In this document: one piece after another, positions 5,592-27,287 of the stretch
How positions within the stretch are numbered: the stretch's first letter is position 1
Layout: every line of letters begins with the position of its first letter
NCBI GenBank assembly: GCA_021828665.1
Contig: JAJZDH010000003.1
Location: 1 to 34,422, forward strand
Direction of reading: 5' to 3'
DNA from: Thermoplasmata archaeon
GTDB lineage: Archaea > Thermoplasmatota > Thermoplasmata > Lutacidiplasmatales > UBA184
Length of the DNA stretch: 34,422 nucleotides
The notes under the pieces: model-generated
The model's database searches: none
Told to the model about the DNA's origin: nothing
What the model saw: the letters and a program-made list of their open reading frames with translations, nothing else
Made by a program: the position numbers and the translations under genes

Positions 5592-6377
5592 TCACCCGAG
5601 ACGGGGGGTTCCCTTCCGACCGAAGGCGGCGACCGCCTTCGCGTTCTCGGGGCTGCCCCGGAGCGGATCCGCGAGGTCGAGCTCGAGGGCGAGCCCGTCG
5701 GCCAGGCTCAGGTCGAGGCCCCGGCGGACCGATTCGCGGGCGGTCCGTACGGCGCGCGGCGGGAGCTCGGCGATCCGTGCGGCGACCGCGCCGGCCTCCG
5801 CGCGCAGCCGTTCGAGGGGAACGATCCGGTTGATGAGTCCGAGCTCGTAGGCGCGGGCCGCGGAGATCGGTGCGCCGGTGAGCATCATCTCGAGCGCCAC
5901 GTTCGGCGGGAGGGCCCGGGGGAGCCGTTGGGTCCCGCCTTGGCCGGGGATGATGCCCCATCGCACCTCCGGCAGCCCGAACGTCGCGTTCGGGCTGGCC
6001 CATCGGAGATCGCAGGCGAGCGCGAGTTCGAGGCCGAGCCCGAGGCAGAGGCCGTTGATGGCGGCCACGACCGGCTTTCCCGGGTCGAAGTTGCGGGTGA
6101 GCCCGCCGAGGCCCGGTTCCCGCTGCCAGCGGGAGCGCCGTTCTCCCGGACGACCTTCCGCATAGAAATCGTCGAGCCGCTTCAAGTCGATCCCGGCCGA
6201 GAACGCCTTGGAGCCGGCCCCATCGAGGAGCCCTACCCGGAGACGGTCGTCGTCCCGGAGCCGGATCCAGGCGCGGACAAGGTCCGCGTGCATCTCGGGG
6301 TCGATGGCGTTCAGGCGCTCCGGCCGTTCCAGCGTCACGCAGAGCACGCCGCCCCGGGCCCGCACGCCGATCGGCAT
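5592..6377 (-). CDS. enoyl-CoA hydratase/isomerase (crotonase) family protein
   Basis: MPIGVRARGGVLCVTLERPERLNAID...FSAGIDLKRL...PVVAAINGLCLGLGLELALACDLRWA...FGLPEVRWGIIPGQGGTQRLPR; both catalytic Glu positions are conserved. TTAAG/ATAAT element about 25 nt upstream. Confidence 0.9.
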   Translation of the reverse strand: MPIGVRARGGVLCVTLERPERLNAIDPEMHADLVRAWIRLRDDDRLRVGLLDGAGSKAFSAGIDLKRLDDFYAEGRPGERRSRWQREPGLGGLTRNFDPGKPVVAAINGLCLGLGLELALACDLRWASPNATFGLPEVRWGIIPGQGGTQRLPRALPPNVALEMMLTGAPISAARAYELGLINRIVPLERLRAEAGAVAARIAELPPRAVRTARESVRRGLDLSLADGLALELDLADPLRGSPENAKAVAAFGRKGTPRLG

Positions 6378-6600
6378 CCCGCGGCCGACCGGCCCCGGCT
6401 TAATGGGATTATCGGCGGGGAGCTCCGCGGCGGGTGCCGCCGCGAGGGGGTCGCGAGGCGCCGCTCCGTTCCCGCTCCGAACGGAGTTCCCGTCGCCCTC
6501 CCCGCTGCCGGCACCCCCTCCCGACGCCGCCGGACCGCCGCGGGGGCCCCTCCCGTGCGGGGAGAAGGGTTCATGAGCGCCCCCGGGTCCCCTCCCCTCC

Positions 6601-9600
6601 ATGGGGGCTTCCCGAACCGCCCGGGGCGCTCCCGGCCGCTCGAGGACCCGGCCCGATCGCCCGCGGAGGCGCGCCGCGGTGCCGTGGACCATCGCCGTGG
6701 TCGTGGGGATGCTCGTTTCGGGTCTCGGCGTGGCCGCCGGTTCCGGTCCCGGGGCGGCGACGGCGAGCTCCGGGTCGCCGGCCGACCGCCCGGTGGCCGT
6801 CGGCCACCGCGACGCCACAACGCCCGCGGTCCCGGGTCCCACCGGCCGTACCCCGATCGACCCGCCCGGACCCCTCGCCCCGGGACGGTCGGTTTCGGCC
6901 TCCGCGACGACCGGAACCACGGGGGTCCCACCGGCCCGCTTCTCCTCGATCCGCATGGGTTCCTTCCATCTCCCCGGCCCGCACCCCCAGTCCTGGGGCG
7001 ACTCGGCGGTGCCGCCCGGGGCCCCGTTCGCGGTCGGCCCGGTGCCGTCCGCTCCGGCCGGGGGCCCGGCTGCGAGCGCATCGGAGAACAGCTCGGTGTT
7101 CTGGAGCGGCCACTGCGCGGGTCTCTATCCGGCCACGGGAAATGCGACGTACTACGACGGTTGCGTCGGCCACGACGAGCCCGGCATTCAGTTCTACTCC
7201 CCCGTTCCCGGGAGCGCGGGGAACATCACCTGGAACGTCACCCTGCCCGTGGACGTAGGCCCCTCCCAGAACCAGTCGAACCTGTACGTCGCGGTGTGGT
7301 TCGGGATGACCCTGAGCGACCCGCTCGCCTGGCTGGACCAGTGCTTCCTGGAATTGCAGCTGTACCCCGACTCCTCGTGGAGCGTTCCCGCCGTCTCCGG
7401 CGAATGGATCGGCGCCGCCGTCGCCTGGCAGATCGAGGCGGCCACCGGCTACGAGGATCCGTGCTACTACTCGCCCCTCTACCTCCACGGCCTCCCGACC
7501 GACGGGTACTTCAACATGACCGGCGGCGACCAGCTCACGGTGGCGATGTCGGGCTGGGAGAACGACCCGTGGGGGGAGAACATCTCCCTGATCGACCGGA
7601 CCCAGCACACCACCTCGAACCTCACCCTGGTCGACCCCTACTCGAACCTCCCGCTCGATCCGGCGTATTCCACCAACAGCTACGAGAACGGGCTCCAGTG
7701 GACGCCGGGCGGCGAGTACCCCAGCGTCTTCGCCTTCGAGACCGGCCACGGGCGCAACCCCGCCTACCCGACGAATACCACCTTCAACTACTGCGCGCCC
7801 GGTCCCCCTCCCGCGACGGCGGCGAATCCCGACGTGCCGTGCCCGAGCTACGATCCGGGAAGCTGGTCGAACGACACCGCCCAACCGTGGAGGATCGAGG
7901 TCCCCACCTTCGGCACGGGGACCCGCACGGCACCGGCCGCCCAGGTCTCCTTCTCGCAGGACCTCGGTGGGATCGACCTCGATGCCGGCGCGCCGGGCTG
8001 CCCCGGAAATCTCGGCAGCGCCTACTGCAGCTATCCGTGGTACAGCTACTCCTGCGCGACCCACTCCTTCCAGTTCGGGGCCACCGACTATCCGGGGGTC
8101 TCGGAGGACTTTGGAAAATACCTGGAGTTCGCCACCTCCGCCGAATCGAACGATCTCGGGTTCGGGTACTATCCGCCCACCAACTTCACCATCCCCACCT
8201 GCGGGGCCGCCTCCGCTTCCGTGAACCTTTCGATCGGCGGGCCGTCGGGAGGTTCCGTCTACTTCCTGTCGCACGATTACGGTTCGGCCGCCGTCATCTC
8301 CGGCCTCGCCCCGGGAGCGTACTCCCTGGACGCTCTCGCTTCCGGCGCCGTGGGGTTCGACCGGTGGGCGGTGACCGGGGCGCTCGCCGTCGGCTCCCCC
8401 ACCGCGGCGTGGACCACCCTCTGGGTGAACGGGAGCGGCAACCTCTCCGCCTCGTTCCAATCCTCGCCGCCCGCGACCGTCGCGGTGACCTTCGACGACT
8501 GGGGGGCGGCGGGCTCGGTCGCGGTGCTGCCGAGCTACCTCCGGATCACCGCCGGGGCCGCCCTCGCCACGGCGGCGAACGGGAGTTCCGTGGCGCTCGT
8601 CCCGCAGATCTACGGGCTCCTCGCCGATGCGCCGCCCGGGTACAACTTCACGCACTGGGCGGTGAACGGCTCGGGAGCGGTCATCGCCGCGAGCGGGCTG
8701 CCGACGAGCTGGCTGCTGGTGGACGGCGCCGCGGCGCGGGTGACCGTCACCGCCTGGTACGCCGCGTCGTCGACGTTCGATTCGATCACGGTCGCCGTCT
8801 CCGGAAACGGGACCGTGAACCTCTCCGGCTCCTCGGGGAGCAGCTTCTCCGAGACGCTCCGCGTGGGCAGCTACCCCGTGGTGGCCGATCCCGGACCCGG
8901 CTGGTCCTTCCAGGGGTGGTACGCCGGAGGGAGCGCCGCGATCCCGGACAACGGGCCGTCGAGCAACCTCACGCTGGAGAACGGCAGTTCGTACCTCTAC
9001 GCCTATTTCGGGGAGCTGCCGGTCGCGGTCCTCCTGGAGGTGGCCCCGGCCGCCGGGGGGACCGTCTCGGTGATCCCGGGCTCGTTCGATGGGAACAACA
9101 CCACCCTCGAACTCCCCGTCGGGACGACCTCGGTGGGCGTGCGGGTCGCCACGGGCTACCGGTTCCTGGGATGGACCGTGAACCAGTCGGGTGCGGGGTG
9201 GGTCGAGAGCCCCGGGGCGGCCGTCTCGAACTTCGTCGTGAATCGGACGGTCCGTCTCACCGCCGATCTCGTGGCCGCGCCGCTCGTCACCGTCTCCTTC
9301 CGGGCCGATCCTCCGGCCGGCGGGTCGATCGAGTTCAACTTCCGCACCTACGGCAACGGCAGCCAGAACACGACCGCCAACGGCTCCTACGCCCTCGCGT
9401 TCGCCCCGTCGCCGGGGTATTCCGAGGTCGGGGTCGGAGCCTCCGGTCCGCTCTCCGTCGGGTCGGGCGTCCTCCAGATCTCGGGAGGCGGCGGGGTGCT
9501 GACGGTGGACTTCCAGGCCATCCCGCCGGTGCCGGTCGCCGTGACCTTCGTCTCCGAGCCCGTGGGAGCCATGTTCGCCCGGATCCAGGGCACCGCCGTG

Positions 9601-10959
9601 ACCTCCGGCGACACCCGGTGGATCCTGCCGGGAACGTATTCGCTGGCGGTGACGACCGCCGCGGCGGACACGTTCGCCTTCTGGACCACGGCGGGCGGGG
9701 TCGGGGTGACCCCGGGCGGTCCCAGCGCCACCCTTTCCGTTTCGGGAGGGGGCACGATCTATGCGATCGGCGCCCCGTTCGTGGTGCGCAACGTCTCGGT
9801 GGCCCCGGCCGTGGTCGACGTGGGCCGGCCGATCCTCCTCGGGGCGGTCGCGACGGGGGCGGGGCCGTTCGCGTACGCGTGGTCCGGGGTCCCCGGCGGG
9901 TGTCCGACCGGCCCCCTCCGTTCCGGTGGAGTCTCCTGCACGCCGACGGTCCCGGGTACCTACGCCGTCCGGCTCACGGTCACCGATACGGAAGGGGCCT
10001 CCCTCGGCCTCGGCCCGTTCGGACTCACCGTCACGCCGCTTCCCCAGATCCAGCTCTTCTCGGCGAGCCCGTCGGCGTTCACCTTGGGCGTTTCCACGCT
10101 CCTCTCGGTCGTGACGGCGAACCCGCCCGGCGGGGTCCCTCCGCTCACCTTCGAGTATCCGGCGTTGCCGTCGGGGTGCGCCCCCGCGGACACCGCGGTG
10201 CTCGTCTGCACCCCCGACCGGGCCGGGAATTCCACGGTGACGGCCCGGGTGGTCGACGCCTCGGGCGCGGCTTCCGAGGCGAACCTCACGCTCGCCGTCG
10301 CCCCGCTTCCCCAGATTTCGTCGTTCGCCGCCTCCCGCCTGACGGTGACCGAGGGGGCGGTCACGAACCTCTCCGTCGCGTGGACCGGGGGGACGGGACC
10401 GTTGGGATGGGTCTACACCGACCTTCCGACCGGGTGCGTCTCGGAGGACGGGCCGCGCCTCGCCTGTTCTCCGAACGGCGCGGGGACCTTCTCGCCGACG
10501 GTCCGCGTCACCGACGCCGACGGCTTCGTGGCCGTCGCGACCCTTTCGCCCCTGGTGGTGAACCCGCCGCCGTCGATCCAATCGTTCGCGGCGAACCCGG
10601 ACCGGATCCCCCTCGGAAACACCACCGAGCTCACCGTCGCCGCCTCGGGAGGAACGGGGAACCTGAGCTACCGGTACACCGGTCTTCCCGGAGGATGCGG
10701 CCCGTCCGTCTCCCCGGCGCTCGCGTGCCGGCCCGCCGCGACGGGGAATTTCACCATCGGGGTGACCGTCACCGACGCCGACGGGATCGAGGCGGTCGCG
10801 TCGGTCCTCCTCGCCGTGACGACCCCCGTCCCGGCCTCCCCGACCCATGGCGGCGCCCCGGGCACCCCGTCGTGGGAGTGGGCGCTCCTGGGGGTCGCCG
10901 GGGTGGCGGCGCTCGCCGTCGGGATCGTGGTCGGGCTCCGGCGCCGCCGGGTCGCGTGA
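6601..10959 (+). CDS. large secreted/cell-surface protein: signal peptide, unassigned N-terminal domain, InlB-like W-rich repeats, four tandem Ig/PKD-like repeats, C-terminal TM anchor
   Basis: 1452-aa ORF. Signal VPWTIAVVVGMLVSGLGVAAGS; C-terminus WEWALLGVAGVAALAVGIVVGLRRRRVA; many N-x-S/T sequons; repeated FxxW and LPxGC...C motifs. Start could also be the internal GTG near 6679. Confidence 0.85.
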   Translation: MGASRTARGAPGRSRTRPDRPRRRAAVPWTIAVVVGMLVSGLGVAAGSGPGAATASSGSPADRPVAVGHRDATTPAVPGPTGRTPIDPPGPLAPGRSVSASATTGTTGVPPARFSSIRMGSFHLPGPHPQSWGDSAVPPGAPFAVGPVPSAPAGGPAASASENSSVFWSGHCAGLYPATGNATYYDGCVGHDEPGIQFYSPVPGSAGNITWNVTLPVDVGPSQNQSNLYVAVWFGMTLSDPLAWLDQCFLELQLYPDSSWSVPAVSGEWIGAAVAWQIEAATGYEDPCYYSPLYLHGLPTDGYFNMTGGDQLTVAMSGWENDPWGENISLIDRTQHTTSNLTLVDPYSNLPLDPAYSTNSYENGLQWTPGGEYPSVFAFETGHGRNPAYPTNTTFNYCAPGPPPATAANPDVPCPSYDPGSWSNDTAQPWRIEVPTFGTGTRTAPAAQVSFSQDLGGIDLDAGAPGCPGNLGSAYCSYPWYSYSCATHSFQFGATDYPGVSEDFGKYLEFATSAESNDLGFGYYPPTNFTIPTCGAASASVNLSIGGPSGGSVYFLSHDYGSAAVISGLAPGAYSLDALASGAVGFDRWAVTGALAVGSPTAAWTTLWVNGSGNLSASFQSSPPATVAVTFDDWGAAGSVAVLPSYLRITAGAALATAANGSSVALVPQIYGLLADAPPGYNFTHWAVNGSGAVIAASGLPTSWLLVDGAAARVTVTAWYAASSTFDSITVAVSGNGTVNLSGSSGSSFSETLRVGSYPVVADPGPGWSFQGWYAGGSAAIPDNGPSSNLTLENGSSYLYAYFGELPVAVLLEVAPAAGGTVSVIPGSFDGNNTTLELPVGTTSVGVRVATGYRFLGWTVNQSGAGWVESPGAAVSNFVVNRTVRLTADLVAAPLVTVSFRADPPAGGSIEFNFRTYGNGSQNTTANGSYALAFAPSPGYSEVGVGASGPLSVGSGVLQISGGGGVLTVDFQAIPPVPVAVTFVSEPVGAMFARIQGTAVTSGDTRWILPGTYSLAVTTAAADTFAFWTTAGGVGVTPGGPSATLSVSGGGTIYAIGAPFVVRNVSVAPAVVDVGRPILLGAVATGAGPFAYAWSGVPGGCPTGPLRSGGVSCTPTVPGTYAVRLTVTDTEGASLGLGPFGLTVTPLPQIQLFSASPSAFTLGVSTLLSVVTANPPGGVPPLTFEYPALPSGCAPADTAVLVCTPDRAGNSTVTARVVDASGAASEANLTLAVAPLPQISSFAASRLTVTEGAVTNLSVAWTGGTGPLGWVYTDLPTGCVSEDGPRLACSPNGAGTFSPTVRVTDADGFVAVATLSPLVVNPPPSIQSFAANPDRIPLGNTTELTVAASGGTGNLSYRYTGLPGGCGPSVSPALACRPAATGNFTIGVTVTDADGIEAVASVLLAVTTPVPASPTHGGAPGTPSWEWALLGVAGVAALAVGIVVGLRRRRVA
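9772..10821 (+). repeat. four tandem 87-89-aa Ig/PKD-like protein repeats, each with a conserved Cys pair
   Basis: Units at about 9772-10032, 10033-10299, 10300-10560 and 10561-10821. Shared PxPxIxxFxAxP, LPxGC...LxCxP and VxVTDADG motifs. Confidence 0.75.
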
Positions 10960-11049: not shown

Positions 11050-12072
11050 CTACGGAACGACGACCGTCCGGAAGCCGAGGCCCTGCCGGAGCCGCTCGGC
11101 CGCGCGACCGATCTCCTCGAGGGGCACGCGCCCGGTCACGACCGGCCCGAGCTCGATCCGTCCCGAGCGCACGAGCTCCACGACCCGCCGGTAGTCGGCG
11201 GGGCGGCATCCGAGCGAGCCCACGACGGTGTATTCGTGGAACATGACCCGGGGGGCGGGCAGGACCGCCGGCGCGGAGGAGTAGCCGAGGAGGCAAAGGC
11301 GCCCGCCGCGGCGCAGCAGGGAGAAGGCCATCTCGATCGTTTTCGGATGGCCCACCGCCTCGACGACCACGTCGGCCCCGTCGTGCCAGATCCGCCGGAG
11401 TTCCCGGGCCGGGTCCCCGGTCCGGGAGGGATTCACCGTCGCGGCGGCCCCGAGACGCCCCGCGACCTCGAGTTTCGCATCGCTCAAGTCGATGGCCACC
11501 ACCTCCGCGCCGGCCCGGTACGCGAACTGGACCACGTTGATGCCGACGCCGCCGCATCCGAGGACGGCGACCCGTTCGCCGGCCCGGACCTGCGCCCGGT
11601 GGACCACGGCGTGGTAGGGGGTGGTGAGCGCGTCGGAGATGACGGCGGCGAGCACCGGGTCGATCTCCCCGGGCAGGGCGACCAGGTCTTTCGCCGGCAC
11701 CACCACCATCTCCGCGAATCCCCCGTCCACGTGGTTGCCGACCATCTTCATCCCGGGGCAGATGTTCTCCCGCCCCGTCCGGCAAAAGTCGCATCGGCCG
11801 CAGGGGAGCACCGCCGGTACCAGCACCCGGTCGCCGGGGGCGACCCCCTCGACGCCGGGTCCCAGCGCATCGATCCGGCCCGAGATCTCGTGGCCGAGGA
11901 TGATCGGCGGCGGTTTCGCGGTGGCCACCCCGTGGTCCAGGTAGTGGAGATCGGTGTGGCAGAATCCGCAGGCGAGGACGGTCACCCGCACCTCGCCGGG
12001 ACCGGGTTCGGGCCGCCCGACCTCCTCCACCTGGAGACCCCGGGCCGGATCCCGGAGCACCGCCGCCCGCAC
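11050..12072 (-). CDS. had: zinc-dependent alcohol dehydrogenase, candidate 6-hydroxycyclohex-1-ene-1-carbonyl-CoA dehydrogenase
   Basis: VRAAVLRDPARGLQVEEVG...CGFCHTDLHYLDHG...ILGHEISG...CGRCDFCRTGRENIC...VLGCGGVGINVVQFAYRAGAEVVAID. MDR-ADH family is clear; the Had assignment rests on neighbouring bcr/oah genes. Confidence 0.65.
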   Translation of the reverse strand: MRAAVLRDPARGLQVEEVGRPEPGPGEVRVTVLACGFCHTDLHYLDHGVATAKPPPIILGHEISGRIDALGPGVEGVAPGDRVLVPAVLPCGRCDFCRTGRENICPGMKMVGNHVDGGFAEMVVVPAKDLVALPGEIDPVLAAVISDALTTPYHAVVHRAQVRAGERVAVLGCGGVGINVVQFAYRAGAEVVAIDLSDAKLEVAGRLGAAATVNPSRTGDPARELRRIWHDGADVVVEAVGHPKTIEMAFSLLRRGGRLCLLGYSSAPAVLPAPRVMFHEYTVVGSLGCRPADYRRVVELVRSGRIELGPVVTGRVPLEEIGRAAERLRQGLGFRTVVVP

Positions 12073-12680
12073 GATCGGTTCAACCTCCCCCGACGGAGCC
12101 GACCGGTGCCGGTCCGGGGAAGGGACGGCCGTTCCGTCCGTGGGGGAGGGGGCCCGGCGCCCGTCGGGGGCCCCCGGCGGGGGTCGGCGGCGCCCCAGCC
12201 GGCGGGCGTCCCGGCGCTCCCTCCCGACGCCGCGCGCCGGCGGCCGGACCCGGACCGCACGGGGACCGGCGCCCGGCCGGGAACCCTGGTGGGAGGATCT
12301 CCCGGCGGCCCCCCGCGATCCCGGGCGGCCACCTGCCGGGAACGCCCTCCGCCGCGGATCGGCCCGGGACGGCTCCGCGGAGGGGACCGGTCGCCCGTTC
12401 CCCGAAGGGAATCGACGCTCCGGGCCGGAGGCACCGGAGAGGGTGGGTCGTCCGAAGAGCCCCCCGGTCCGGGAGGTCCGGAGCTCGTCGACCGGCGGGC
12501 CCCCGGAAGTGGGCCGCGGACGGACGGGACGCCTCCGCCCTGCCGGAGGTCCCGGCGGGGCCGTGACGTCGCCGCCTATCGGACCCGGGATCCGGACGGC
12601 CCCCTCGGGCGTCGGGGTCCCGGGAACCGCCCCGTTCCCCCCCGCCCATCGGGCCCGCCTCCCGCACCGCTCCTCCGGGC

Positions 12681-13925
12681 TCAGGCGAACAGGATCGACT
12701 CGACGAAGGTCTCGAGCTGGAGACGGGACTGGTCGAGCGCCGAGGACCGTTCCTCGAACTCGAGGTGAAGGGACGGGATCTTCTCCCGGTCCAGGGCGGC
12801 CCGGTACAGGACGATGTCCTCGAGCGCCGGCTCGCAGAATTTCGCGGTCAGGAAGAGGACCGCCTGCGCCCCGGCCGCCGCGACCCTTCCGAGGATGGCC
12901 TCCCCCTTCGTCGTGGGGGTGGCCCGGACACCGATGTCCAGGGGGCTCTCGACGTAGGCGCGGGCGAGGTTCTCGAGCGGATCGCCGGTCGGGTCGACCG
13001 CCGGGTGCCACCGGTAAAGCTGCAGGAGCTCGTCGTCGACGACGTAGCAGCCCACCTGCTCGAGGAGATCGAGGAGATCGAGGGTCGGCTGCTCGCAGAA
13101 CGAACCCACGAGCAGCACCCGGACGGAGTCCTTGGGACGGGGCACCCGGTCCTCGACCGCGGCGCGCATCCGGCGCAGGAGCTCGAGGTGCACCTCGCGC
13201 GGGAGGAGCCCTCCCAGCCGCCGGACCAGGTACGACTCCGTGAGGGAGATCCGGGACGGGTCCCGCCGCTTGATCTCGGTCCAACGGGCGATCTCCGCCC
13301 GCTGCCGGTTGAACAGCTCGATGGAATCGGCCAACCGGTCGGGCCGGTACGGGGAGCCGCCGGCCGATTCCAGGACGCGGAGGAGGCGGCGGTACTCGGC
13401 GACCAGGAACGGCACGGTCGCCGCCGACCGGAAATTCTGGGGGAGGTGGAGCATGTGGGTGGCGGCGCCGGGCACCGCCCGGGGAAAGATCCCCTCCAGA
13501 TTGCGGCTGACGTCGCAGATGTACGGGAAGACGAACGCCCGGAACGGGGCGAGGCGGCCGGTCAGACCCATTTCGAGGGTGGACTTGCTGATGGAGCAGA
13601 GGAAGGATCCCAGCGCCGCGTCCGCGTGGCTGATCTCGATGGTCTCCCCGCCCCCGTGGAGCGCCACGGGCAGCATCCCCATCGCATGGATCAGTTCCTG
13701 CGGGGTGTAGACGGGGAAGCATCCGACGGCCGACCGGCCGGACCGGTTCCAGGCCCGCACGGTGGGCCAGGTCGCGTCGGCTAGGACGGCCCGGGCGAGC
13801 CGGTCGACGGCTTCGAGGGATGGGGCCCGGGCGAACTCTTCGAAGGAGTCGCTCACCTCGAGGGGCGGGGCGCCCTCGGGATCGGCGGCGGCGGCGGCCC
13901 CTTCGGAGGAGGCGCGGACGGCCAT
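12681..13925 (-). CDS. benzoyl-CoA reductase subunit, BcrC/BadD/BzdN-like (HgdB-type fold)
   Basis: GCFPVYTPQELIHAMGMLPVALHGG, FPYICDVSRN, LVGSFCEQPTLDLLDLLEQVGCYVVDDEL, FCEPALEDIVLYRAALDREKIPSLHLEFEERSSALDQSRLQLETFVESI. Conserved Cys in expected places. Confidence 0.82.
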   Translation of the reverse strand: MAVRASSEGAAAAADPEGAPPLEVSDSFEEFARAPSLEAVDRLARAVLADATWPTVRAWNRSGRSAVGCFPVYTPQELIHAMGMLPVALHGGGETIEISHADAALGSFLCSISKSTLEMGLTGRLAPFRAFVFPYICDVSRNLEGIFPRAVPGAATHMLHLPQNFRSAATVPFLVAEYRRLLRVLESAGGSPYRPDRLADSIELFNRQRAEIARWTEIKRRDPSRISLTESYLVRRLGGLLPREVHLELLRRMRAAVEDRVPRPKDSVRVLLVGSFCEQPTLDLLDLLEQVGCYVVDDELLQLYRWHPAVDPTGDPLENLARAYVESPLDIGVRATPTTKGEAILGRVAAAGAQAVLFLTAKFCEPALEDIVLYRAALDREKIPSLHLEFEERSSALDQSRLQLETFVESILFA

Positions 13926-13928
13926 GCC

Positions 13929-14747
13929 TCACCCCTCGACCGCGAGGACCGCGGGGGGCCGACCGCCGAGCTTCTCGAGCCGCGCGTGGCCCAGGATCGC
14001 CGCCCCGAGCGCGGCGGCGTGGTGGGCGCGGGGGTCGGCGACGACCGGCACCCCCGCCGTCCGGGAGAGCGCCTCGACCATGGCCTCGCTGTGGACCAGG
14101 CCGCCGACGAGCGCGACCTCCGGTTGGATTCCCGCATGACGCATCAGGATGTACGCCCGCTGCGCCAGCGACAGGAAGACCCCCATCAGGATGTCGGGGA
14201 GCGGGACCTCCTCGGCCACGCTGTTGATGATCTCCGTCTCGGCCAGGACGGCGCAGACGCTGGAGATCATCTTCGGGTGGGCCGCGGCGAGCGCCTTCGG
14301 CGCCATCTCCTCGAGCGGGACCTGGAGGTACTTCGCGCACCGGTCCACGAACCGGCCCGCCCCGGCGGCGCACTTCTCGTTCATCTTGAACCGGACGACC
14401 CGGCCGGACTCCGAGATGGACATCGCCCGGGAGGACTGGCTGCCGATGTCGACCACATGCCGGGTCCCGGGGTGGAGGAAGGCGGCGCCGCGGGCCGAGG
14501 CGGTGATATCGCTCACCTGCAGGTGGCGGTCGGGGTAGGCGTAGCGGGCCCCGCCGGTCGTGCAGAGGTAGTCGACCTCCCCCGGCAGCAGGTTGGCCTC
14601 CTCGACCATCGTTTCGAGGATCTTCCGGCCGGCCGCGACGGGGTTGCCCCGGGTCGGCAGGAGGGCGGTGGCGAGGATGCGGCGGCCCTCCTCGAGGAGG
14701 ACCCCTTTGGTGGAGCCGGAACCAAGGTCGAGGCCACCCGAGATCAT
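13929..14747 (-). CDS. benzoyl-CoA reductase ATPase/activator subunit, BcrA/BzdP-like (ASKHA family)
   Basis: GGLDLGSGSTKGVLLEEG, DIGSQSSRAM, MNEKCAAGAGRFVD, SSVCAVLAETEIIN, ALVGGLVHSEAMV. Two Cys expected to ligate the bridging [4Fe-4S] cluster. ATGA overlap with upstream gene. Confidence 0.85.
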   Translation of the reverse strand: MISGGLDLGSGSTKGVLLEEGRRILATALLPTRGNPVAAGRKILETMVEEANLLPGEVDYLCTTGGARYAYPDRHLQVSDITASARGAAFLHPGTRHVVDIGSQSSRAMSISESGRVVRFKMNEKCAAGAGRFVDRCAKYLQVPLEEMAPKALAAAHPKMISSVCAVLAETEIINSVAEEVPLPDILMGVFLSLAQRAYILMRHAGIQPEVALVGGLVHSEAMVEALSRTAGVPVVADPRAHHAAALGAAILGHARLEKLGGRPPAVLAVEG

Positions 14748-15532
14748 GCGGAGATCCCCTCCGTCCGCTCGCGGCCGTGGAGCGCCGCCCCGATCGCCCC
14801 CACGTACTGCGAGAGCGGGCTCACGTTGACCGGGAGCGCGAGACGCCGCTCCAGGGTCCGGACCATCCCCCCGTTCCGGGAGACGCCCCCCGTGAAGGTG
14901 ACCTCGGGCTCCACGCCGACCCGTTGCAGGAGCGAGAGCGAGCGGCCGACGATGCCGCCGTACAGGCCGGCGAGGATATCCGGCGGCTCCTTGCCCCGGG
15001 CCACGTAGGAGGCCACCTCGGACTCCGCGAAGACCGTGCAGGTGTTCGTCACCTTCACGGGGTGCCGGGCCCCCTCGGCGAGGGCCCCGATCTCGCTCAC
15101 ATCGAAACCGAGGGCGCCCGCGCACACATCGAGGAACCGGCCGGTCCCGGCGGCGCACTTGTCGTTCATCGCGAAATCCACCACCTCCCCGCGGGGGTCC
15201 ACCTTGATTGCCTTCGTGTCCTGGCCGCCGATGTCGAGGACGACCCGCGTGCCGGGGAAGAGGAAGTGGGCTCCCTTGGCGTGGCATCCGATCTCGGTCA
15301 CGGTGAACCGGCCGAAGGCGACCTTGAACCGGCCGTAGCCGGTCCCGGTGACCACCGCCACCTCGTGGCGTTCCCGGCCGGCCTCGGCCAGCGCCTGCGC
15401 CAGCGCCCGCTCGGCGTCCTTCACCAGTTCGACGCCGACGGGGGCCAGCGACTTGCCGACGATCCGGTCTCCCTCGAGGAGCACGCATTTCGCCGTCGTG
15501 GACCCGATGTCCACGCCCGCCACGAGCGTCAC
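14744..15532 (-). CDS. benzoyl-CoA reductase ATPase/activator subunit, BcrD/BzdQ-like (ASKHA family)
   Basis: VTLVAGVDIGSTTAKCVLLEGD, LDIGGQDTKAIKVD, MNDKCAAGTGRFLDVCA, NTCTVFAESEVASY, TFTGGVSRNGGMV. GTGA overlap with the bcrB-like gene. Confidence 0.88.
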   Translation of the reverse strand: MTLVAGVDIGSTTAKCVLLEGDRIVGKSLAPVGVELVKDAERALAQALAEAGRERHEVAVVTGTGYGRFKVAFGRFTVTEIGCHAKGAHFLFPGTRVVLDIGGQDTKAIKVDPRGEVVDFAMNDKCAAGTGRFLDVCAGALGFDVSEIGALAEGARHPVKVTNTCTVFAESEVASYVARGKEPPDILAGLYGGIVGRSLSLLQRVGVEPEVTFTGGVSRNGGMVRTLERRLALPVNVSPLSQYVGAIGAALHGRERTEGISA

Positions 15533-16809
15533 GGTGCCCCCCGCAGGGGTTCCGCCGCGCCCCCCCGGCGCCGATCGAGCGACTCGAAGAACGCATCCAT
15601 CCGGTTCTTGATCTGGGCGGGGGCGAAGTACCGTGGATCCTCGTGATCCGACTCGATGTAGAGCGTGGGGATCCCGAGGTCGTGGATCAGCCGGTCCCGC
15701 AGGTCGCCCTGGCCGGCGGTGAACGACCGGCAGGACTTGATGCCGTGGATGAGCACGGCATCGGCGGCGAACTCCCGGACGTACTCCTCGATGAGCTTGC
15801 GTCGCAGCGGCCACGACTGGTTCACGTACGCCCCGAGGGCGTATTCGGCGATGCTCTCGAGCGGGCGGGCCGGGTCGTGGAGGAACCCGCGGTCGAAGAG
15901 GCCGCCCACCTTCGGATAGGTGGCGGCCACCGACACCGCGCCCCACTTCCGGAAGAAGTCCCAGAAGGTCCGGTAGTTCGGGTACGGCGGCACCCCCTCG
16001 ACGACGAGGCGGACCTTCTCCTCCGGCACGGGGTAGGCGCCGGACCGGACCCGCTCGTCGACCTCGGCGTTCAACGTCGCGTAGAACCGGGCGGCCTCCT
16101 CGGTCCCGCGCAGGACATTGATGGGGAACATGTGGAACACGGCCTCGAAGTAGGCTTCGATGGGCGAGGGACGGCGCGCGCCGGAGGCCAGGTACCGGAC
16201 CCACCCCTCCTCGGCGGCCCGGGAGTGGGCCAGGGTGCGCCGCAACGACGCCGGGTCGAACCGCCGATCGGAGGCCTTCTCCAGGAAGGCGATGAATTCG
16301 TTCAGCTGGGCGACGATGTACCCGAGGTCCTCGGTGGGGGGCCGCTCGTCCCGGAGGTACGGGACGTCCAAGAGGAAGAGCGGGCAGCCGAACTTCTCGG
16401 CCAGCGCCTCCCACCACTTCACGTAGACGTAGCAGCCGGAGAAGCTGCAGACGAGGAGGTCGGGCGGCGGGATCCGGCCGAACGGCGTCTGGCCGCCGAG
16501 CTGCTGGAGCCCGAGATCGTTCTTGACGTATCCGCACACGTCGAGGCCGTACCCCTGCGCCTCGGCCTGGAGGATGTTGGGGAGCGAGACATGCTTGATG
16601 GCGCAGTTCAGGGCGACGATCTCGGGGAAGACCACCTCGTAGCCGAACGAACGGACGATCTCCGTGAGGTTGCCGCCCACCAGCATGTAGGCGACCGGCC
16701 GCTTCGCTCCCCCGGCCGTGGCGAGATCGGCGTAGTAGGCCTCGATCATCTCGCGTTGCCGGTCCCGCGCGGAGACCAGGAAGGAGGGCTCCTCGGTGGA
16801 TGCGCCCAT
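15529..16809 (-). CDS. benzoyl-CoA reductase subunit, BcrB/BadE/BzdO-like
   Basis: RDRQREMIEAYYADL...DVCGYVKNDLGL...PDLLVCSFSGCYVYVKWWEAL...RPSPIEAYFEAVFH...RGTEEAARFYATL...KVRLVVEGVPPYPNYRTFWDFFRKWGAVSVAATYPKVGGLFDRGFLHDP...GIKSCRSFTAGQ...IESDHEDPRYFAPAQIKNRMDAFFE; very similar to remembered BcrB sequences. Confidence 0.9.
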   Translation of the reverse strand: MGASTEEPSFLVSARDRQREMIEAYYADLATAGGAKRPVAYMLVGGNLTEIVRSFGYEVVFPEIVALNCAIKHVSLPNILQAEAQGYGLDVCGYVKNDLGLQQLGGQTPFGRIPPPDLLVCSFSGCYVYVKWWEALAEKFGCPLFLLDVPYLRDERPPTEDLGYIVAQLNEFIAFLEKASDRRFDPASLRRTLAHSRAAEEGWVRYLASGARRPSPIEAYFEAVFHMFPINVLRGTEEAARFYATLNAEVDERVRSGAYPVPEEKVRLVVEGVPPYPNYRTFWDFFRKWGAVSVAATYPKVGGLFDRGFLHDPARPLESIAEYALGAYVNQSWPLRRKLIEEYVREFAADAVLIHGIKSCRSFTAGQGDLRDRLIHDLGIPTLYIESDHEDPRYFAPAQIKNRMDAFFESLDRRRGGAAEPLRGAP

Positions 16810-16829
16810 CGATCCCCCCCTCGCCGGGA

Positions 16830-17960
16830 CTACGGTGGCGGGGCCGGTCCCGCTCCGGCTCCGTCGGACAACGGGGCGCCGCACCGGCCGCAGTAGCGGA
16901 ACAGTTCGGGGAGTCCGGTCTCCCCGCACCGGCCGCAGGACCGGAGCGGGGCGCCGTGGAGGAAGTCGGCCTCCCCGCCCCGCGCGAGAGCGCGTCGCAA
17001 CTCGGCGACCCGGGCCGGTCGCTTGTCGACGAAGGCGTGCATCCCATCGAACGGTTCGGCGGTGGCGAAGTGGAGGGCGAGCCATTCCTGGGCATGCCCG
17101 ACCGTCTGGTTCCAGGCGAACTCCTTCCAGAAGTTGGCCTGCGCCTTCGTGTACCGGAGGCACTCCGGATACATCCCGAGCAGTCTCTGGGCGAGGGCAT
17201 CGACCGCCTCGTCGAGCCGCCCCAGGTCGATCCGGTACCCCCGCTCCTCCTTCTGCGCCCAGCCGATCTCCTCGGCCGTCGGCGCCGCCACCCACTCTCC
17301 GTTGCACACCACCGAGGGGACCACGGAGTTGACGAGCCCCCACTCCGCGGCCCGGGCGGCCGGGACCCGTTCGTTCGTCATCAGCATCGAGCGCGCCCTC
17401 CGGTCCCCGACGGCGAGCGGCAGCCACTGGGTCGCCCCGCCCGCGGCGACCGAACCGACCCCCACGCCGACCTGCCCGAGGTAGATGTGCGCGGCGGCGA
17501 TGGAGAGGTCGCAGGCGAGGTGGAGCTCGTTGCCCCCGCCGACGGCGATCCCGTTGAGGCGGGCGATCACCGGCTTGCCGCAGCGCAGGATGGACTCGAC
17601 CGCCTCGCGGAAGACGGCCATGTACTTCCAGTAGTCGTGGGGACGCTCGAGGAAGCGGCTCGCGTACTCCTTCACATCCCCACCGGTGCAGAACGCCCGG
17701 GAGCCCGCGCCCGTGAGGACGATCACCCCGATCCGATCGTCGCGAGAGGCGTTCCCCATCGCCCGGGTGAGTTCCCGGAGGGTGGCGGTGCTGTAGGCGT
17801 TGTGCGCCTCCAGTCGTTGGAGCGTGATCCGGACCACCGATTCGGACCGCTCGTACCGGAGGTCGAGGTATCCCCCGGATTCGTCCGCCACCGGGGAGAT
17901 CGGGTCGGGGCGGGCGGAGCCCAGGGCGGCGGAGCCGTTCGCGCGCGCCCGGACCGACAC
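16830..17960 (-). CDS. bamA: 6-oxocyclohex-1-ene-1-carbonyl-CoA hydrolase (Oah/BamA) with C-terminal zinc-ribbon extension
   Basis: RSESVVRITLQRLEAHNAYSTATLRELTRAM...DDRIGVIVLTGAGSRAFCTGGDVKEYASRF...KPVIARLNGIAVGGGNELHLACDL...GQVGVGVGSVAAGGATQWLPLAVGDRRARSMLMTNE...WGLVNSVVPSV...YRIDLGRLDEAVDALAQRLLGMYPECLRYTK matches Oah/BamA. C-terminal CGRCGETGLPELFRYCGRCGAPL. GTG start at 17960 is approximate. Confidence 0.87.
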   Translation of the reverse strand: MSVRARANGSAALGSARPDPISPVADESGGYLDLRYERSESVVRITLQRLEAHNAYSTATLRELTRAMGNASRDDRIGVIVLTGAGSRAFCTGGDVKEYASRFLERPHDYWKYMAVFREAVESILRCGKPVIARLNGIAVGGGNELHLACDLSIAAAHIYLGQVGVGVGSVAAGGATQWLPLAVGDRRARSMLMTNERVPAARAAEWGLVNSVVPSVVCNGEWVAAPTAEEIGWAQKEERGYRIDLGRLDEAVDALAQRLLGMYPECLRYTKAQANFWKEFAWNQTVGHAQEWLALHFATAEPFDGMHAFVDKRPARVAELRRALARGGEADFLHGAPLRSCGRCGETGLPELFRYCGRCGAPLSDGAGAGPAPPP

Positions 17961-18541
17961 CGCTTCCGCCCCGGGAGGCCATCGGGTCCGGTTCGGAAAA
18001 TCGTTCGCCCTGACCGGTGCGGGACCGGCGGGCCGGGCGATCGCCCCGGTCGGTGCGGCCGCTCCCGGCCCCCGAGGGATTCCGGCGGCCCCGCGGGCGT
18101 CGGCTCGCCGCCTCTTCCGACGGCTCCGCGCTCCGCCACCGGTCGCCCGCGGAGCCCGCGGCGCGCGGAGCGGTCGGTCGGATGCCTTCTCGCTCCGGGC
18201 GATCGCCCCCTCCTCGGGCCCTCGCCGACCGTACCGGTACGGGAAGGCGCGAGGATCCCCTCCGCGGGCGCCTCGTCCCCCGATCGCCCGTGGCGGTCGT
18301 CGGGCCCCCCATCGCCCCCCCCCGCGGGCCCCCGGACCGTCGGAGCACCACGGAACGGAACGATCCGGAGCGCCTCCCCCGGGCGTCGCCATCGTCCCCC
18401 CTCCCCTTGACGGACGTCGGCCGGGCCGGCACGCCGAACCCAAGGTCCGCCGTCCGAAGGGACCCCCCGTGGCCGGGGTTCGGGGTCGGGCGGAGGAACG
18501 GCGGCTTGGGCCGGCAAGCTCCAAGTACTCGGAGGGCGGAG

Positions 18542-19438
18542 ATGGCGGCACCGATGGAGCCCCTCCCGCCGCGGCCGCTCGCATCGTCGGTGCCGGGGCC
18601 GCGGGAACTGCTCGAGATCGCCCGGAAGGCCGCCCGGGCCGGCGGTCGTCGGACTCTCGAATATTTCGGGGGGCGGCTCCCGGCGGAGACGAAGTCCGAC
18701 GGCTCCCCGGTGACCCGGGCGGACCGGGCGTCGGAGGCGGCGATCCGGGCCGTCCTCCGGCGGGAGCGTCCCCACGACGGCGTCACCGGCGAGGAAGGAG
18801 GGGTGCGGCCGGGACGCTCCCCGGTCCACTGGATCGTGGACCCGATCGACGGGACGAAGTCGTTCGTCCACGGGGTGCCGCTGTACTCCGTGCTCGTGGC
18901 GGCGGAGGTGGACGGGGAGCCCACCGTGGGCGTCATCCACATGCCCGCCCTCGGCGAGACGGTCGCGGCGGCCCGGGGCCTCGGATGCCGCTGGAACGGC
19001 CGGGCCGCTCACGTGTCGCGAACGGAGCGGCTCTCCGAGGCGACCGTCCTCACCACCTCGGTCCGGGGGTTGGAGGCCCGGGGGGTGCCGTTTCGACGCC
19101 TCGCCCACCGCTCGCGGTGGCAGCGGGGGTGGGGCGACGGCTACGGGTACGCGCTCGTCGCCACCGGACGGGCCGATGCGATGATCGATTCCGCGGTCCA
19201 GATCTGGGACGCGGCGCCGCTCCTTCCCATCCTCGCGGAGGCCGGCGGACGGTTTTCCGATTGGACCGGGCGGGCCTCGATCCGGGGCCCGGACGCCGTG
19301 GGGACGAACGGGCTCCTCCACGAAGAGATGCTCCGCCTGCTCGGGCGCGAGCGCCTTCCCCCGTCGGGGCGGACCCGGGCCCACCCCGCTCCGGGCGGCC
19401 CGCGCCGGCGGGGCCGGACCGATCGGCCTCCCCGGTGA
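18542..19438 (+). CDS. inositol monophosphatase family phosphatase, candidate histidinol-phosphatase (HisN type)
   Basis: TGEEGG, WIVDPIDGTKSFVHGVPLYSV, and QIWDAAPLLPILAEAGGRFSDW are canonical IMPase motifs. Converges on a his operon lacking another histidinol-phosphatase. Confidence 0.85.
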   Translation: MAAPMEPLPPRPLASSVPGPRELLEIARKAARAGGRRTLEYFGGRLPAETKSDGSPVTRADRASEAAIRAVLRRERPHDGVTGEEGGVRPGRSPVHWIVDPIDGTKSFVHGVPLYSVLVAAEVDGEPTVGVIHMPALGETVAAARGLGCRWNGRAAHVSRTERLSEATVLTTSVRGLEARGVPFRRLAHRSRWQRGWGDGYGYALVATGRADAMIDSAVQIWDAAPLLPILAEAGGRFSDWTGRASIRGPDAVGTNGLLHEEMLRLLGRERLPPSGRTRAHPAPGGPRRRGRTDRPPR

Positions 19439-19510
19439 GGAGGCCCCCGGCCGCTTCCCGTCGTCCCGGTCCCGGTCTCCCCGGCGGGGTCGCCGGCCGG
19501 AGTTCGGATT

Positions 19511-20218
19511 CTAGGCGCCCGGCGCCGTCGATCCGCCGGCCGGATCCGGCGGGGCGGAGCCTCCTCCGGGGGCGGCCGGATCCCCGGTGGCGGGCCGCCG
19601 CCGACGGAGTTCCCGAAGGACCTCGTCGAAGGAGACCCCGCGGGCCTCCAGGAGGACCAGCGTGTGGAAGAGGAGGTCGGCGGCTTCCCACGCGATGGGA
19701 GCCCGGTCCGAACCCTCGGCTGCCAGGATGAGCTCGATCGCCTCCTCCCCCACCTTCCGGCGCAGCCGCGCCGGATCCCGGAGCAGTCCGGCCACATAGG
19801 ATCCGTCGGGGGCCCGCCGGGCCCGGTCCGCGACCACCGCTCGGAGCTCCTCGAGGATCGCATACGGGGGTTCGGGGCCGGGAAAGCAGCTTCCGGCCCC
19901 GGTGTGGCAGGCCGGCCCGAGCGGAAGCACCCGGGCGAGCAGCGCGTCCCGGTCGCAGTCCCATTGGAGGTCGACGACCCGCTGCACGTTCCCGGAACTC
20001 TCCCCCTTGTGCCAGAGCGCCCGCCGCGACCGCGACCAGAAGTGCATCTCCCCGGTCTCCCGGGTCCGCTCCAGGCTCTCGTCCGAGGCGTACGCGAGCA
20101 TGAGGACCTGGCCGGTCTCTGCATGCTGGACCACGACCGGAACGAGGCGCGGTCCCGTCCCCCCGGCCCCGCCCGGGGCGGCCCGGTCGGATCCGCCATC
20201 GGCCGGCTCCTCCGTCAT
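19511..20218 (-). CDS. hisIE: bifunctional phosphoribosyl-AMP cyclohydrolase / phosphoribosyl-ATP pyrophosphatase (HisIE)
   Basis: [53 protein letters not shown]...[11 protein letters not shown]...CHTGAGSCF (HisI), then [28 protein letters not shown]...[27 protein letters not shown] (HisE). Confidence 0.93.
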
Positions 20219-20985
20219 CCGGCCTCCTCCGAGCGCACCGGGAGGCGGTGCGCCCGCAGGTAGGACTTGATCGAGGGAATCGAGACGGCGCCGTCGTGGA
20301 GCCGGGAGGCGAGCAACGCCGCGTCGGCCAGTCCCTCCCCGAAGAGCCGTCCCATGTCCTCGAACGCCCCGAACCCTCCCGACGCGATCAGGGGCCGCTC
20401 GAGCACCCCCCGCAGCGCCCGGTAGAGGGCCCGGTCGTACCCCGCCTGCGTTCCGTCGGCGTCGATGCTCGTCACCAGGAACTCGCCGGCGCCGGCCGTC
20501 TGCCCCGCCGCGGCCCAGGCCACCACCGAGGTTCCGGTCCGCTCGCGCCCGCCGCGGAGCGCCACCTCCCACCCGTCGGCCGTCCGCGCGGCGTCGATGG
20601 CGAGGACGGCGCACTGCGTCCCGTACTGGGCCGCCGTCTCGGTGAGGAGCCCGGGGCGGCGGAACGCGGCCGTGTTCATCGCCACCTTGTCGGCGCCGTG
20701 GCCGAGGAGGTCGCCGACCTCCTGGAGGCTCCGCACGCCGCCGCCCACCGTCAGCGGGACGGAGAGCGCTCCGGCCACGTCCCGGACCACGCCGAGGTCC
20801 GGCCCCCGTCCCCGAACGGAGGCCTCGATGTCCAGGAGCACGAGCTCATCGGCCCCCTCGGCCTCGTACCGGACGGCGGCCGCGACGGGATCGCCCGCGT
20901 CCCGGAGATCCTCGAACCGGACCCCCTTGACGACCCGTCCGTCCCGGAGGTCGAGGCAGGGGATGATCCGGAGCGCGACCATCAC
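20215..20985 (-). CDS. hisF: imidazole glycerol phosphate synthase subunit HisF
   Basis: [28 protein letters not shown]...[11 protein letters not shown]...LTVGGGVRS...[13 protein letters not shown]...[13 protein letters not shown]. Start GTG 20985 or ATG 20982. Confidence 0.95.
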
Positions 20986-21542
20986 CGGAGCTCCTCCCAG
21001 GCGACCTGGCCCTTCGTGGAGAGTTCCCGGGCCGCCGGCGCGGTCGCCCGGTCGAAGGCGAGGCCGAACGCCTTGAAGGTGGCCTCGAGGAGGTGGTGCG
21101 CCTCGCCCGGCCGGATCGTCCTCTGGTGGAGGGAGAACGGGGCTTCGAGGACCAGCGACCGGAGGAGGTGTTCCCCGAGGTTGTCGGCCGGGAGGTCGGC
21201 GCGGTAGTACGGCCGATCGACCAGGTCGAGGACGACCTGGACGAGCACCTCGTCCATCGGCACCGTCGCCTCGCCGAACCGGGCGATCCCGCGCTCGGGA
21301 ATCGCCCGGCGCAGCGCCCGGCCCAGCGCGAGGGCGCTGTCCTCGGCCACGTGGTGGGGATCGTCGCCGCGGGTGCGGAGCCGGATATCGGTGCCCGAGT
21401 ACCGGGCGAAGGCCCCCAGCAGGTGGACCAGGAAGCCGTCCGGGTGCTCCCAGTCGAGCCGTCCCCGGGCGTGGAGCCGGACCGAGACCTCGACCCGGGT
21501 CTCCCGCGTCGTGCGCCGGAGCCGTGCCGCCGGGCCGGTCAT
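20982..21542 (-). CDS. hisB: imidazoleglycerol-phosphate dehydratase HisB
   Basis: RRTTRETRVEVSVRL...DPHHVAEDSALALGRAL...GEAHHLLEATFKAFGLAFDRAT; both HHxxE metal motifs. Confidence 0.93.
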   Translation of the reverse strand: MTGPAARLRRTTRETRVEVSVRLHARGRLDWEHPDGFLVHLLGAFARYSGTDIRLRTRGDDPHHVAEDSALALGRALRRAIPERGIARFGEATVPMDEVLVQVVLDLVDRPYYRADLPADNLGEHLLRSLVLEAPFSLHQRTIRPGEAHHLLEATFKAFGLAFDRATAPAARELSTKGQVAWEELR

Positions 21543-22246
21543 CGGACCGCCTCCCGGAGCCGATCCGGGCCCGGTCCCTCGCGGTAGAGGGCGAGGCCGA
21601 CCACCGCCGCGTCGAACCCGGCCGCGGCGAGGGTCCGGAGATCCTCCGGCCCGGCGACCCCCCCCGCCGCGATCCGCTCGTGCCGGCAGCGGGCCACCAT
21701 CTCTCCCAGCGGATCGCCGACGCCCTCCATCCGGCCCTCGGCGACGGTATTCGTGAAGAGGACCCCTCCCAGGGGCAGGTCGTTCGCGGTCCTCACGATC
21801 TCCCCGAGCGGCACGGCCAGGGACTCGGTCCGGCCCGCGAGGAGCGCCCGCCGGTCCCGGTGGTCGATCCCGAGGAGGATCCGTCCGGGGTGGCGCCGGG
21901 CCATCGCGACGAGCCACGGGGGATCCCGGAGGGCGCGCGTGGAGACGATGGCCCGGGAAGCCCCGGCCGCGAGGAGCTCGCCGATCCGATCCGTATCCCG
22001 GAGACCACCGCCCACCTGGACCGGCACCTCCACGCTGCGGAGGATGCGGAGGAGGAGCTCCCGGTTGTCCCCCCGGCCCAGGGCCGCGTTGAGGTCCACC
22101 ACCTGGAGCCGCCGCGCGCCCCGGTCCGCCCACGCCCGGGCGGTGGCGACCGCATCCTCGGCCACGGTCGTGAGCTGTTCCGGCGGACCGCCCCGCAGGA
22201 ACCCCACCCGGCCATCCCAGAGGTCGAGGGAAGGGATCACGATCAT
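21539..22246 (-). CDS. hisA: phosphoribosylformimino-5-aminoimidazole carboxamide ribotide isomerase HisA
   Basis: MIVIPSLDLWDGRV...LQVVDLNAALG...VPVQVGGGLRD...RAIVSTRAL...IAAGGVAGPEDL; syntenic position between hisH and hisB. Confidence 0.9.
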   Translation of the reverse strand: MIVIPSLDLWDGRVGFLRGGPPEQLTTVAEDAVATARAWADRGARRLQVVDLNAALGRGDNRELLLRILRSVEVPVQVGGGLRDTDRIGELLAAGASRAIVSTRALRDPPWLVAMARRHPGRILLGIDHRDRRALLAGRTESLAVPLGEIVRTANDLPLGGVLFTNTVAEGRMEGVGDPLGEMVARCRHERIAAGGVAGPEDLRTLAAAGFDAAVVGLALYREGPGPDRLREAVR

Positions 22247-22860
22247 CCGGCTACCCCCTCCGCCCACTCGAGGAAGGCGGCCAGGAAGGCGGCCCCCGCC
22301 CGTCCGCTCCGCTCCGGGTGGAACTGCACCCCGACCACGGATCCGGCGCGGACGACCGCGGCGAACTCGATCCCATGGAAGGAGGTCGCCACCGTCCCCG
22401 CCGTTCCGGCGGGCAGGGCGTAGGAATGGGCGTAGTACATCTCGGGATCGACCGTCGGCCCGCCGAGCCCGAGCAGCATGGGATCGGGGGTCCGCCGGAG
22501 CGGCGACCAGCCCATGTGCGGCAGGAGCGGTCCGGGGAGACGGACCACCTCGCCGCGGAGGAGCCCCAGACCCTGCCCCGGTCCCTCCTCGCTCGCCCCC
22601 GCCAGGACCTGGAGGCCGGCGCAGATCCCCAGGAGCGGCGTTCCCGCGCGCACCCGCCGCACGAGCTCGGCCCGGAGCGGCTCCACCCCCCGCGCGATCG
22701 CCGGGAAGGAGGCGACCCCGGGGAGGACGAGGATCCCGGCCCCGGCGATCGCCTCCGGGTCCCGGGAGATCCTCGGCGGGCGTCCCAGCCGTTCGAACGA
22801 CCGGGCCAGGCTGAAGAGATTGCCGGTCCCGGTGTCGACGATGAGGATCGGCCCCTTCAT
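22243..22860 (-). CDS. hisH: imidazole glycerol phosphate synthase glutamine amidotransferase subunit HisH
   Basis: ILIVDTGTGNLFSLARSFERLG...LPGVASFP...PLLGICAGLQVLAGASEEG...HMGWSPL...YYAHSYAL...GVQFHPERSG. Confidence 0.93.
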   Translation of the reverse strand: MKGPILIVDTGTGNLFSLARSFERLGRPPRISRDPEAIAGAGILVLPGVASFPAIARGVEPLRAELVRRVRAGTPLLGICAGLQVLAGASEEGPGQGLGLLRGEVVRLPGPLLPHMGWSPLRRTPDPMLLGLGGPTVDPEMYYAHSYALPAGTAGTVATSFHGIEFAAVVRAGSVVGVQFHPERSGRAGAAFLAAFLEWAEGVAG

Positions 22861-27191: not shown

Positions 27192-27250
27192 GGCTTTCGG
27201 TCCCTCCGACGGCGGAACCGCCCCCGGCGGCAGAGATCGGGGGTTACTAC

Positions 27251-27265: not shown

Positions 27266-27287
27266 GGCACCTAGGTTTGCCCGTCCG

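Follow-up and report, generated by a model that had tools for sequence, protein, structure and literature searches.

What is encoded by six minus-strand genes that lie together in a 34,422-nucleotide stretch of a Thermoplasmata draft genome (GenBank assembly GCA_021828665.1, contig JAJZDH010000003.1; the whole stretch is called the window below)? A preliminary description of this DNA had proposed a class I benzoyl-coenzyme A (CoA) reductase (BCR) in preference to a 2-hydroxyacyl-CoA dehydratase. All six genes of the oah/bcr/had kind are present and open, with the best curated families that it had named. From our comparisons, the product of the operon is probably a class I reductase of the Bcr/Mbd branch that depends on ATP and acts on an aroyl-CoA, most likely benzoyl-CoA; genes for two of the three subsequent enzymes would accompany it.

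The genes are transcribed in the order oah-like, bcrB, bcrA, bcrD, bcrC and had, and all frames are intact. The junctions are operon-like: the bcrB stop overlaps the GTG start of bcrA (GTGA), bcrA and bcrD overlap in ATGA, and three bases lie between the bcrD stop and the bcrC start. The host draft genome comprises 1.62 Mb in 176 contigs, among which the locus is on contig C10, and is estimated to be 97.8% complete with 0% contamination.

Reductase subunits and ATPases

Among solved structures, the top match of all four subunits in sequence searches is the 3-methylbenzoyl-CoA reductase MbdONPQ of Thauera chlorobenzoica (PDB 9g87/9gai). The BcrB-like subunit P0005 (15529-16809, minus strand, as are all six genes; TIGR02260, 341.5 bits) matches MbdO with 219.8 bits and HadB with 134 bits, while the BcrC-like subunit P0002 (12681-13925; TIGR02263, 252 bits) matches MbdN with 234.8, HadC with 166 and BzdN with 92 bits. 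For the alpha-type ASKHA ATPase P0004 (14744-15532, GTG start) the scores are 274.5 bits to MbdQ and 213 bits to HadI, and for the delta-type ATPase P0003 (13929-14747) they are 177.6 bits to MbdP and 165 bits to HadI. The BcrD profile scores above the BcrA profile for P0003. Profiles, structure matches and tree thus reverse the ATPase order of the preliminary description, which had bcrD first: the first gene is alpha/BcrA/MbdQ-like and the second delta/BcrD/MbdP-like.

In a maximum-likelihood tree of BcrB proteins, P0005 and MbdO form one clade (support 98/94), with the HadB-type proteins and BzdO outside. The BcrC and ATPase trees are quick maximum-likelihood trees calculated without bootstrap. 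In the former, P0002 is grouped with MbdN (Shimodaira-Hasegawa-like approximate likelihood ratio test 96), and HadC and BzdN fall outside; in the latter, P0004 is in the MbdQ group and P0003 in the MbdP group, and HadI and HgdC fall outside. The reference sets of the trees were short of complete BcrABCD and BamA/Oah sequences from Thauera, Rhodopseudomonas, Magnetospirillum and Ferroglobus. A search of a plasmid collection matched only sequences of the 2-hydroxyacyl-CoA dehydratase type, which served as controls.

The residues agree with this placement. P0005 shares the motifs CGYVK, KSCR and DAFFE with MbdO; these are Bcr-branch motifs and are absent from HadB. Its cysteines 93, 127 and 361, and cysteines 110, 137 and 364 of P0002, align with the cluster ligands of the family. 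Both ATPases, which differ from each other, carry putative cluster cysteines (Cys127/166 in P0004, Cys126/165 in P0003) in motifs that align with MbdQ and MbdP. The AlphaFold model of P0005 (mean predicted local distance difference test, pLDDT, 90) has MbdO as its top PDB match with a template modelling (TM) score of 0.89, and HadB-type structures follow at 0.88; a BCR and a dehydratase can therefore not be told apart by fold alone.

Like MbdONPQ, the window system has four subunits, two for the reductase and two ATPases that differ from each other, each in the matching Mbd group. However, the BcrB-type subunit is only about 30-35% identical to its Thauera counterpart, and the window cluster is archaeal, includes a different Oah-type protein and is without dch. 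The Bzd-type class I BCR (PDB 8s02) also has two ATPases but represents a distinct branch: its matches to the BcrB- and BcrC-like proteins of the window reach 92-106 bits, less than those of Mbd and Had, and the window proteins do not branch with BzdO and BzdN. With the (R)-2-hydroxyisocaproyl-CoA dehydratase HadBC/HadI (PDB 3o3m, 4eht) the window proteins have in common a homologous fold, the cluster cysteines and the activator fold, but the dehydratase has one homodimeric activator, and all four window subunits branch elsewhere. A dehydratase identity was rejected on the basis of the trees, in which the subunits and ATPases are placed outside HadB, HadC and HadI/HgdC. The trees and the curated profiles therefore agree with the choice made in the preliminary description, and sequence comparison supports a class I aroyl-CoA reductase.

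An Oah-like crotonase with a zinc ribbon

The first gene of the operon encodes P0006 (16830-17909, start codon uncertain; the conserved core starts near 17903). Its top NCBIfam match is TIGR03200 (Oah), with 198.7 bits against a cutoff of 464. In the tree, its subfamily is separated from enoyl-CoA hydratases and Dch (100/99), as the preliminary description had expected for an Oah, and it also stands apart from classical Oah. This subfamily, MenB and classical Oah form one side of the tree, which does not resolve the order among them. P0006 is therefore Oah-like, not a classical Oah.

The alignment shows that P0006 keeps the first catalytic glutamate of enoyl-CoA hydratases (GGGNE) and lacks the second, as does classical Oah; MenB also lacks the second. 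The structure model of P0006 (pLDDT 87) has a crotonase fold. Unlike classical Oah, P0006 ends in a CxxC...CxxC zinc ribbon; none of its four cysteines varies among 15 members of the subfamily from archaea and bacteria. Against a model of this subfamily P0006 scores 642 bits.

Among bacterial clusters of this Bcr clade, some have a classical Oah above cutoff (494 bits in L080; L-numbers denote loci of related clusters compared with the window) and others the zinc-ribbon type (226 bits in L058). This points to a common function of both types without proving it. In the archaeal family of the window, the zinc-ribbon protein is encoded in 34 genomes, of which all but one (33) have BcrB too (Fisher p 2e-22); the two genes are linked, so this co-occurrence is not independent evidence.

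The Had-like gene and the missing Dch

The last gene, P0001 (11050-12072, GTG start), encodes a zinc-dependent dehydrogenase. TIGR03201 (Had) is the best of all families, at 239 bits against a cutoff of 338.65, and the position of the gene downstream of the reductase is conserved in relatives. In a phmmer search generic alcohol dehydrogenases match first, so a Had role of P0001 would rest on profile and context.

Between bcrC and had, nearly all relatives have a crotonase of about 255 amino acids in which both catalytic glutamates are present. Its top family is TIGR03189 (Dch), to which the two proteins scanned score 133-182 bits against a cutoff of 292.5. In the window this position is taken by a gap of 608 bp (12073-12680) of unrelated, unique sequence, which went unnoticed in the preliminary description. 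Identity to the dch of relatives is 43-46% at the nucleotide level, whereas the flanking bcrC and had reach 71-79%. A dch pseudogene in the gap was considered and rejected, as 43-46% after forced alignment is the level of unrelated DNA at this base composition and no frame resembles the Dch of relatives. The gap sequence has no substantial match in 24 related genomes. A Dch encoded elsewhere in the host genome was rejected likewise: the best matches are general paralogues of up to 143 bits, the level found in genomes without bcr, compared with 304-436 bits for orthologues adjoining the main cluster type. The host genome does encode other crotonases.

Dch is present in 26 of the 36 BcrB-bearing genomes of the family, and BcrB in 26 of the 27 Dch-bearing ones. 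In most of the other ten BcrB genomes, dch is either lost or in an unassembled part. In L045 it is absent on a contiguous stretch, where the spacing between bcrC and had is 20 bp and the remaining genes are kept. The losses in the window and in L045 look independent, because the nearest relatives of the window in the BcrB tree keep dch and L045 branches elsewhere.

Conservation and distribution

The cluster BcrB was found in 36 of 103 genomes of the archaeal family of the window. In the family loci that were read, the gene order is the same and the proteins are 57-86% identical. The ratio of nonsynonymous to synonymous substitution rates (dN/dS) is 0.09-0.24 for every one of the six genes, near the values between relatives and often slightly higher, i.e., all six are under purifying selection. 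Together, the recurrent gene order and these ratios exclude a chance arrangement.

The family comes from acidic soils and mine waters. The named relatives are Thermoplasmata metagenome-assembled genomes (MAGs). One of them, SubAcS9-61, whose BcrB falls inside the BcrB clade of the family, is listed in the paper describing the order Lutacidiplasmatales (PMC9287336). From this placement we infer that the family belongs to the Lutacidiplasmatales (Thermoplasmatota). The main-type BcrB sequences of the family make up a separate clade, next to which a single Heimdallarchaeota sequence is placed. Relatives beyond the family, at 48-58% BcrB identity, occur in Heimdallarchaeota, other Thermoplasmatota, Acidobacteria, Chloroflexi, Zixibacteria, Planctomycetota, Ignavibacteria, Bacteroidetes and others. 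Where the contig reaches, these loci nearly always include the second reductase subunit and two ATPases, and often Had- and Oah-like genes. Several bacterial clusters also include genes that fit a role in aromatic metabolism, namely a molybdenum hydroxylase resembling 4-hydroxybenzoyl-CoA reductase (in L080, 924 of 994.55 bits), an IorA above cutoff and an acyl-CoA dehydrogenase.

Some loci have further genes or clusters. A second, deeply branching BCR-like cluster with 44-45% BcrB identity is found in L022, L023, L025 and L026, from one genus (g4) of the family; in L023 and L025 it comes with a separate Oah-like protein of the zinc-ribbon type, and a divergent Dch is encoded in these genomes. 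In L027, from another genome of the same taxonomic class (G040, contig C23), a Bzd-type BCR and a HadB-like gene are on one contig. A peptidase U32 gene lies near the cluster in the archaeal loci L024, L030, L035, L036, L039, L040 and L041 (PF01136 confirmed in L041), of which L024 and L040 represent the same genome region.

Proposed pathway and alternative explanations

With the known Thauera enzymes as the template for the mechanism, we infer the substrate, the reactions, the electron donor and the stand-in for Dch as follows. The ATPase pair P0004/P0003 would accept electrons from reduced ferredoxin through one common 4Fe-4S cluster and, upon ATP hydrolysis, hand them singly to the clusters of P0002 and P0005. 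These two subunits would then carry out a Birch-like reduction of benzoyl-CoA to cyclohexa-1,5-diene-1-carbonyl-CoA. Water would be added by a hydratase, the Dch-like protein in most operons of relatives and another crotonase here, the resulting alcohol would be oxidised by P0001, and P0006 may open the ring hydrolytically to 3-hydroxypimelyl-CoA. Besides the trees and motifs, the points counted in favour of this reading are that relatives have Dch-, Had- and Oah-like genes in their operons, that the zinc-ribbon protein and Dch co-occur with BcrB in the family, that bacterial clusters of the clade have either type of Oah and neighbouring genes that fit aromatic metabolism, and that the host genome has two 2-oxoacid:ferredoxin oxidoreductase genes.

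Several observations weigh against this proposal. None of the six proteins reaches the equivalog cutoff of its family model; for the reductase the values are 341/487 (BcrB), 252/421 (BcrC), 183/578 (BcrA) and 145/313 bits (BcrD), and the Had-like P0001 also falls short. For comparison, the BcrB and BcrC models give only 212 and 224 bits, respectively, for the Mbd-type proteins of Aromatoleum buckelii, below the 341 and 252 bits of the window. The Mbd type thus misses the B and C cutoffs as well, and these cutoffs do not define the whole Bcr/Mbd branch. The preliminary description had also suggested looking in the genome for the accompanying functions. Of these, the two oxidoreductase genes count for the proposal. 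On the other side, the operon includes no ferredoxin gene, the genome has no Dch orthologue, and a search of 16 family genomes returned no benzoate-CoA ligase above cutoff (top score in the host, 228 of 375 bits), so the substrate of the reductase is putative. Finally, class I BCRs are oxygen-sensitive, and a haem-copper oxidase subunit I (484 bits) is among the proteins of the host.

One explanation for part of these observations, a real though unlikely possibility, is a class I reductase with another natural substrate, e.g., methylbenzoyl-CoA, hydroxybenzoyl-CoA or some other aromatic acyl-CoA, with P0006 opening a different ring. The distant relationship to the nearest solved enzyme, a 3-methylbenzoyl-CoA reductase, the below-cutoff scores of the Oah, Had and Dch homologues and the lack of a typical benzoate-CoA ligase are all consistent with it. 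However, the BcrB profile scores the window (341) above the Mbd type (212), i.e., nearer to the benzoyl-CoA-reducing Bcr model, the gene set matches the benzoyl-CoA route, and some bacteria of the clade have a classical Oah.

That the operon is decaying in the host genome, with the loss of dch and the inversion of the cluster as signs of a pathway out of use, appears improbable. The patchy presence in the family, the missing Dch orthologue, the inversion relative to the HTH_10/enoyl-CoA hydratase pair with a surface-protein gene in between, and dN/dS values slightly above those between relatives in most, but not all, comparisons would fit such a decay. Against it stand six intact frames with low dN/dS, the retained cluster cysteines, the L045 lineage, which likewise lost dch and kept the rest, and the other crotonases of the genome.

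A 2-hydroxyacyl-CoA dehydratase system of the Had/Hgd/Fld type with a duplicated activator would share fold and superfamily, and HadB-type structures match the P0005 model nearly as well as MbdO; it is nevertheless very improbable, as all four subunits group with Mbd/Bcr proteins, each of the two different ATPases has its own BCR counterpart, and Oah-, Had- and Dch-like genes are the neighbours. Bacterial contamination or a chimeric contig is hardly credible: although the MAG has 176 contigs, many bacteria have related proteins and the unusual dch gap and inversion could conceal a misjoin, the contig has archaeal neighbours (FEN1/XPG, PAC2, HTH_10), the cluster recurs in 36 of 103 family genomes with the main-type BcrB as one clade, and the contamination estimate is 0%.

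A class I aroyl-CoA reductase, most likely for benzoyl-CoA, is thus the explanation that we prefer. Beyond it, it can be speculated, although we find this doubtful, that aerobic-capable acidophilic archaea carry out class I dearomatisation by means of a hitherto undescribed zinc-ribbon family of ring-opening hydrolases, which stands in for classical Oah throughout a wide BCR clade of archaea and bacteria, and that the organism of the window has rerouted the pathway through loss of its dedicated dienoyl-CoA hydratase.

Genomic surroundings

Archaeal-type XPG/FEN1, PAC2 and HTH_10 genes are neighbours on the contig. The HTH_10 transcription regulator (4776-5549, plus strand; PF04967, 65.6 bits) is a conserved neighbour: in the archaeal family, 21 loci, the window included, have a member of its sequence cluster close to the bcr genes. 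Beside it, an enoyl-CoA hydratase gene (5592-6400, minus strand, start uncertain) encodes both catalytic glutamates; its orthologue in relatives (74%) is the crotonase flanking the cluster there. Relative to this pair the operon is inverted here, and a gene for a 1452-amino-acid protein intervenes. This gene (6601-10959, plus strand) is located between had and the flanking crotonase; judging from the sequence, its product is probably secreted or exposed on the surface and anchored in the membrane at its C-terminus.

The region 18017-25977, immediately upstream of the operon, carries genes of histidine biosynthesis (HisN-like, HisIE, HisA/F, HisB, HisH and HisG), followed at 26376-34133 by a second HTH_10 regulator, an M13 peptidase and two DHA2-type major facilitator superfamily transporters.

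Hemerythrin-like genes adjoin the cluster, upstream of oah, in the archaeal loci L033, L035, L036, L039, L041, L042 and L043 (PF01814 confirmed in L041), and occur in the bacterial loci L062 (PF01814 confirmed) and L080 (same sequence cluster); none was seen beside the cluster of the window. A possible role of these neighbours is protection of the reductase from oxygen.

Relation to known archaeal clusters

The preliminary description had associated the archaeal pathway mainly with Ferroglobus-like Archaeoglobi. This is too narrow: a 2019 study reported class I bcr accompanied by dch, had and oah from MAGs including Thermoplasmata and Bathyarchaeota (PMC6472368), and later reports added class I bcr from Hermodarchaeota in 2021 (PMC8163825) and bcrABCD from 'Ca. 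Yaplasmales' in 2022 (PMC9239135). The archaeal occurrence is therefore not new. Class I bcr is common to the window and these Thermoplasmatota, Bathyarchaeota and Asgard clusters, for some of which had, dch and oah were reported as well; a Thermoplasmatota MAG whose sample label suggests the Yaplasmales study (L057) has a 55% identical BcrB in the same wide clade. In contrast to those lineages, which come from sediments or seeps, the family of the window is from acidic soils and mine waters, has a haem-copper oxidase and forms its own BcrB clade.

Lutacidiplasmatales lifestyles are described as aerobic and facultative (PMC9287336), and at least in the main text of that paper neither 'benzoyl' nor 'aromatic' occurs. 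We found no report of the cluster in Lutacidiplasmatales or of the dch loss in a literature search that was thin on subscription journals, which makes this weak evidence; nor did the same search, which was not aimed at the zinc-ribbon Oah-like subfamily, return a report of it. As far as could be found, the occurrence in Lutacidiplasmatales, the zinc-ribbon hydrolase subfamily common to archaea and bacteria and the loss of Dch are new.

The zinc-ribbon subfamily offers a testable enzyme subfamily for ring opening, common to Acidobacteria, Chloroflexi, Zixibacteria and others. The locus also raises the question of how an oxygen-sensitive, ATP-consuming reductase is kept alongside a haem-copper oxidase, and of what replaces Dch. 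Class I dearomatisation, in archaea so far from anoxic sediments and Archaeoglobi, would be extended to a group of acid soils and mine waters that is described as aerobic or facultative.

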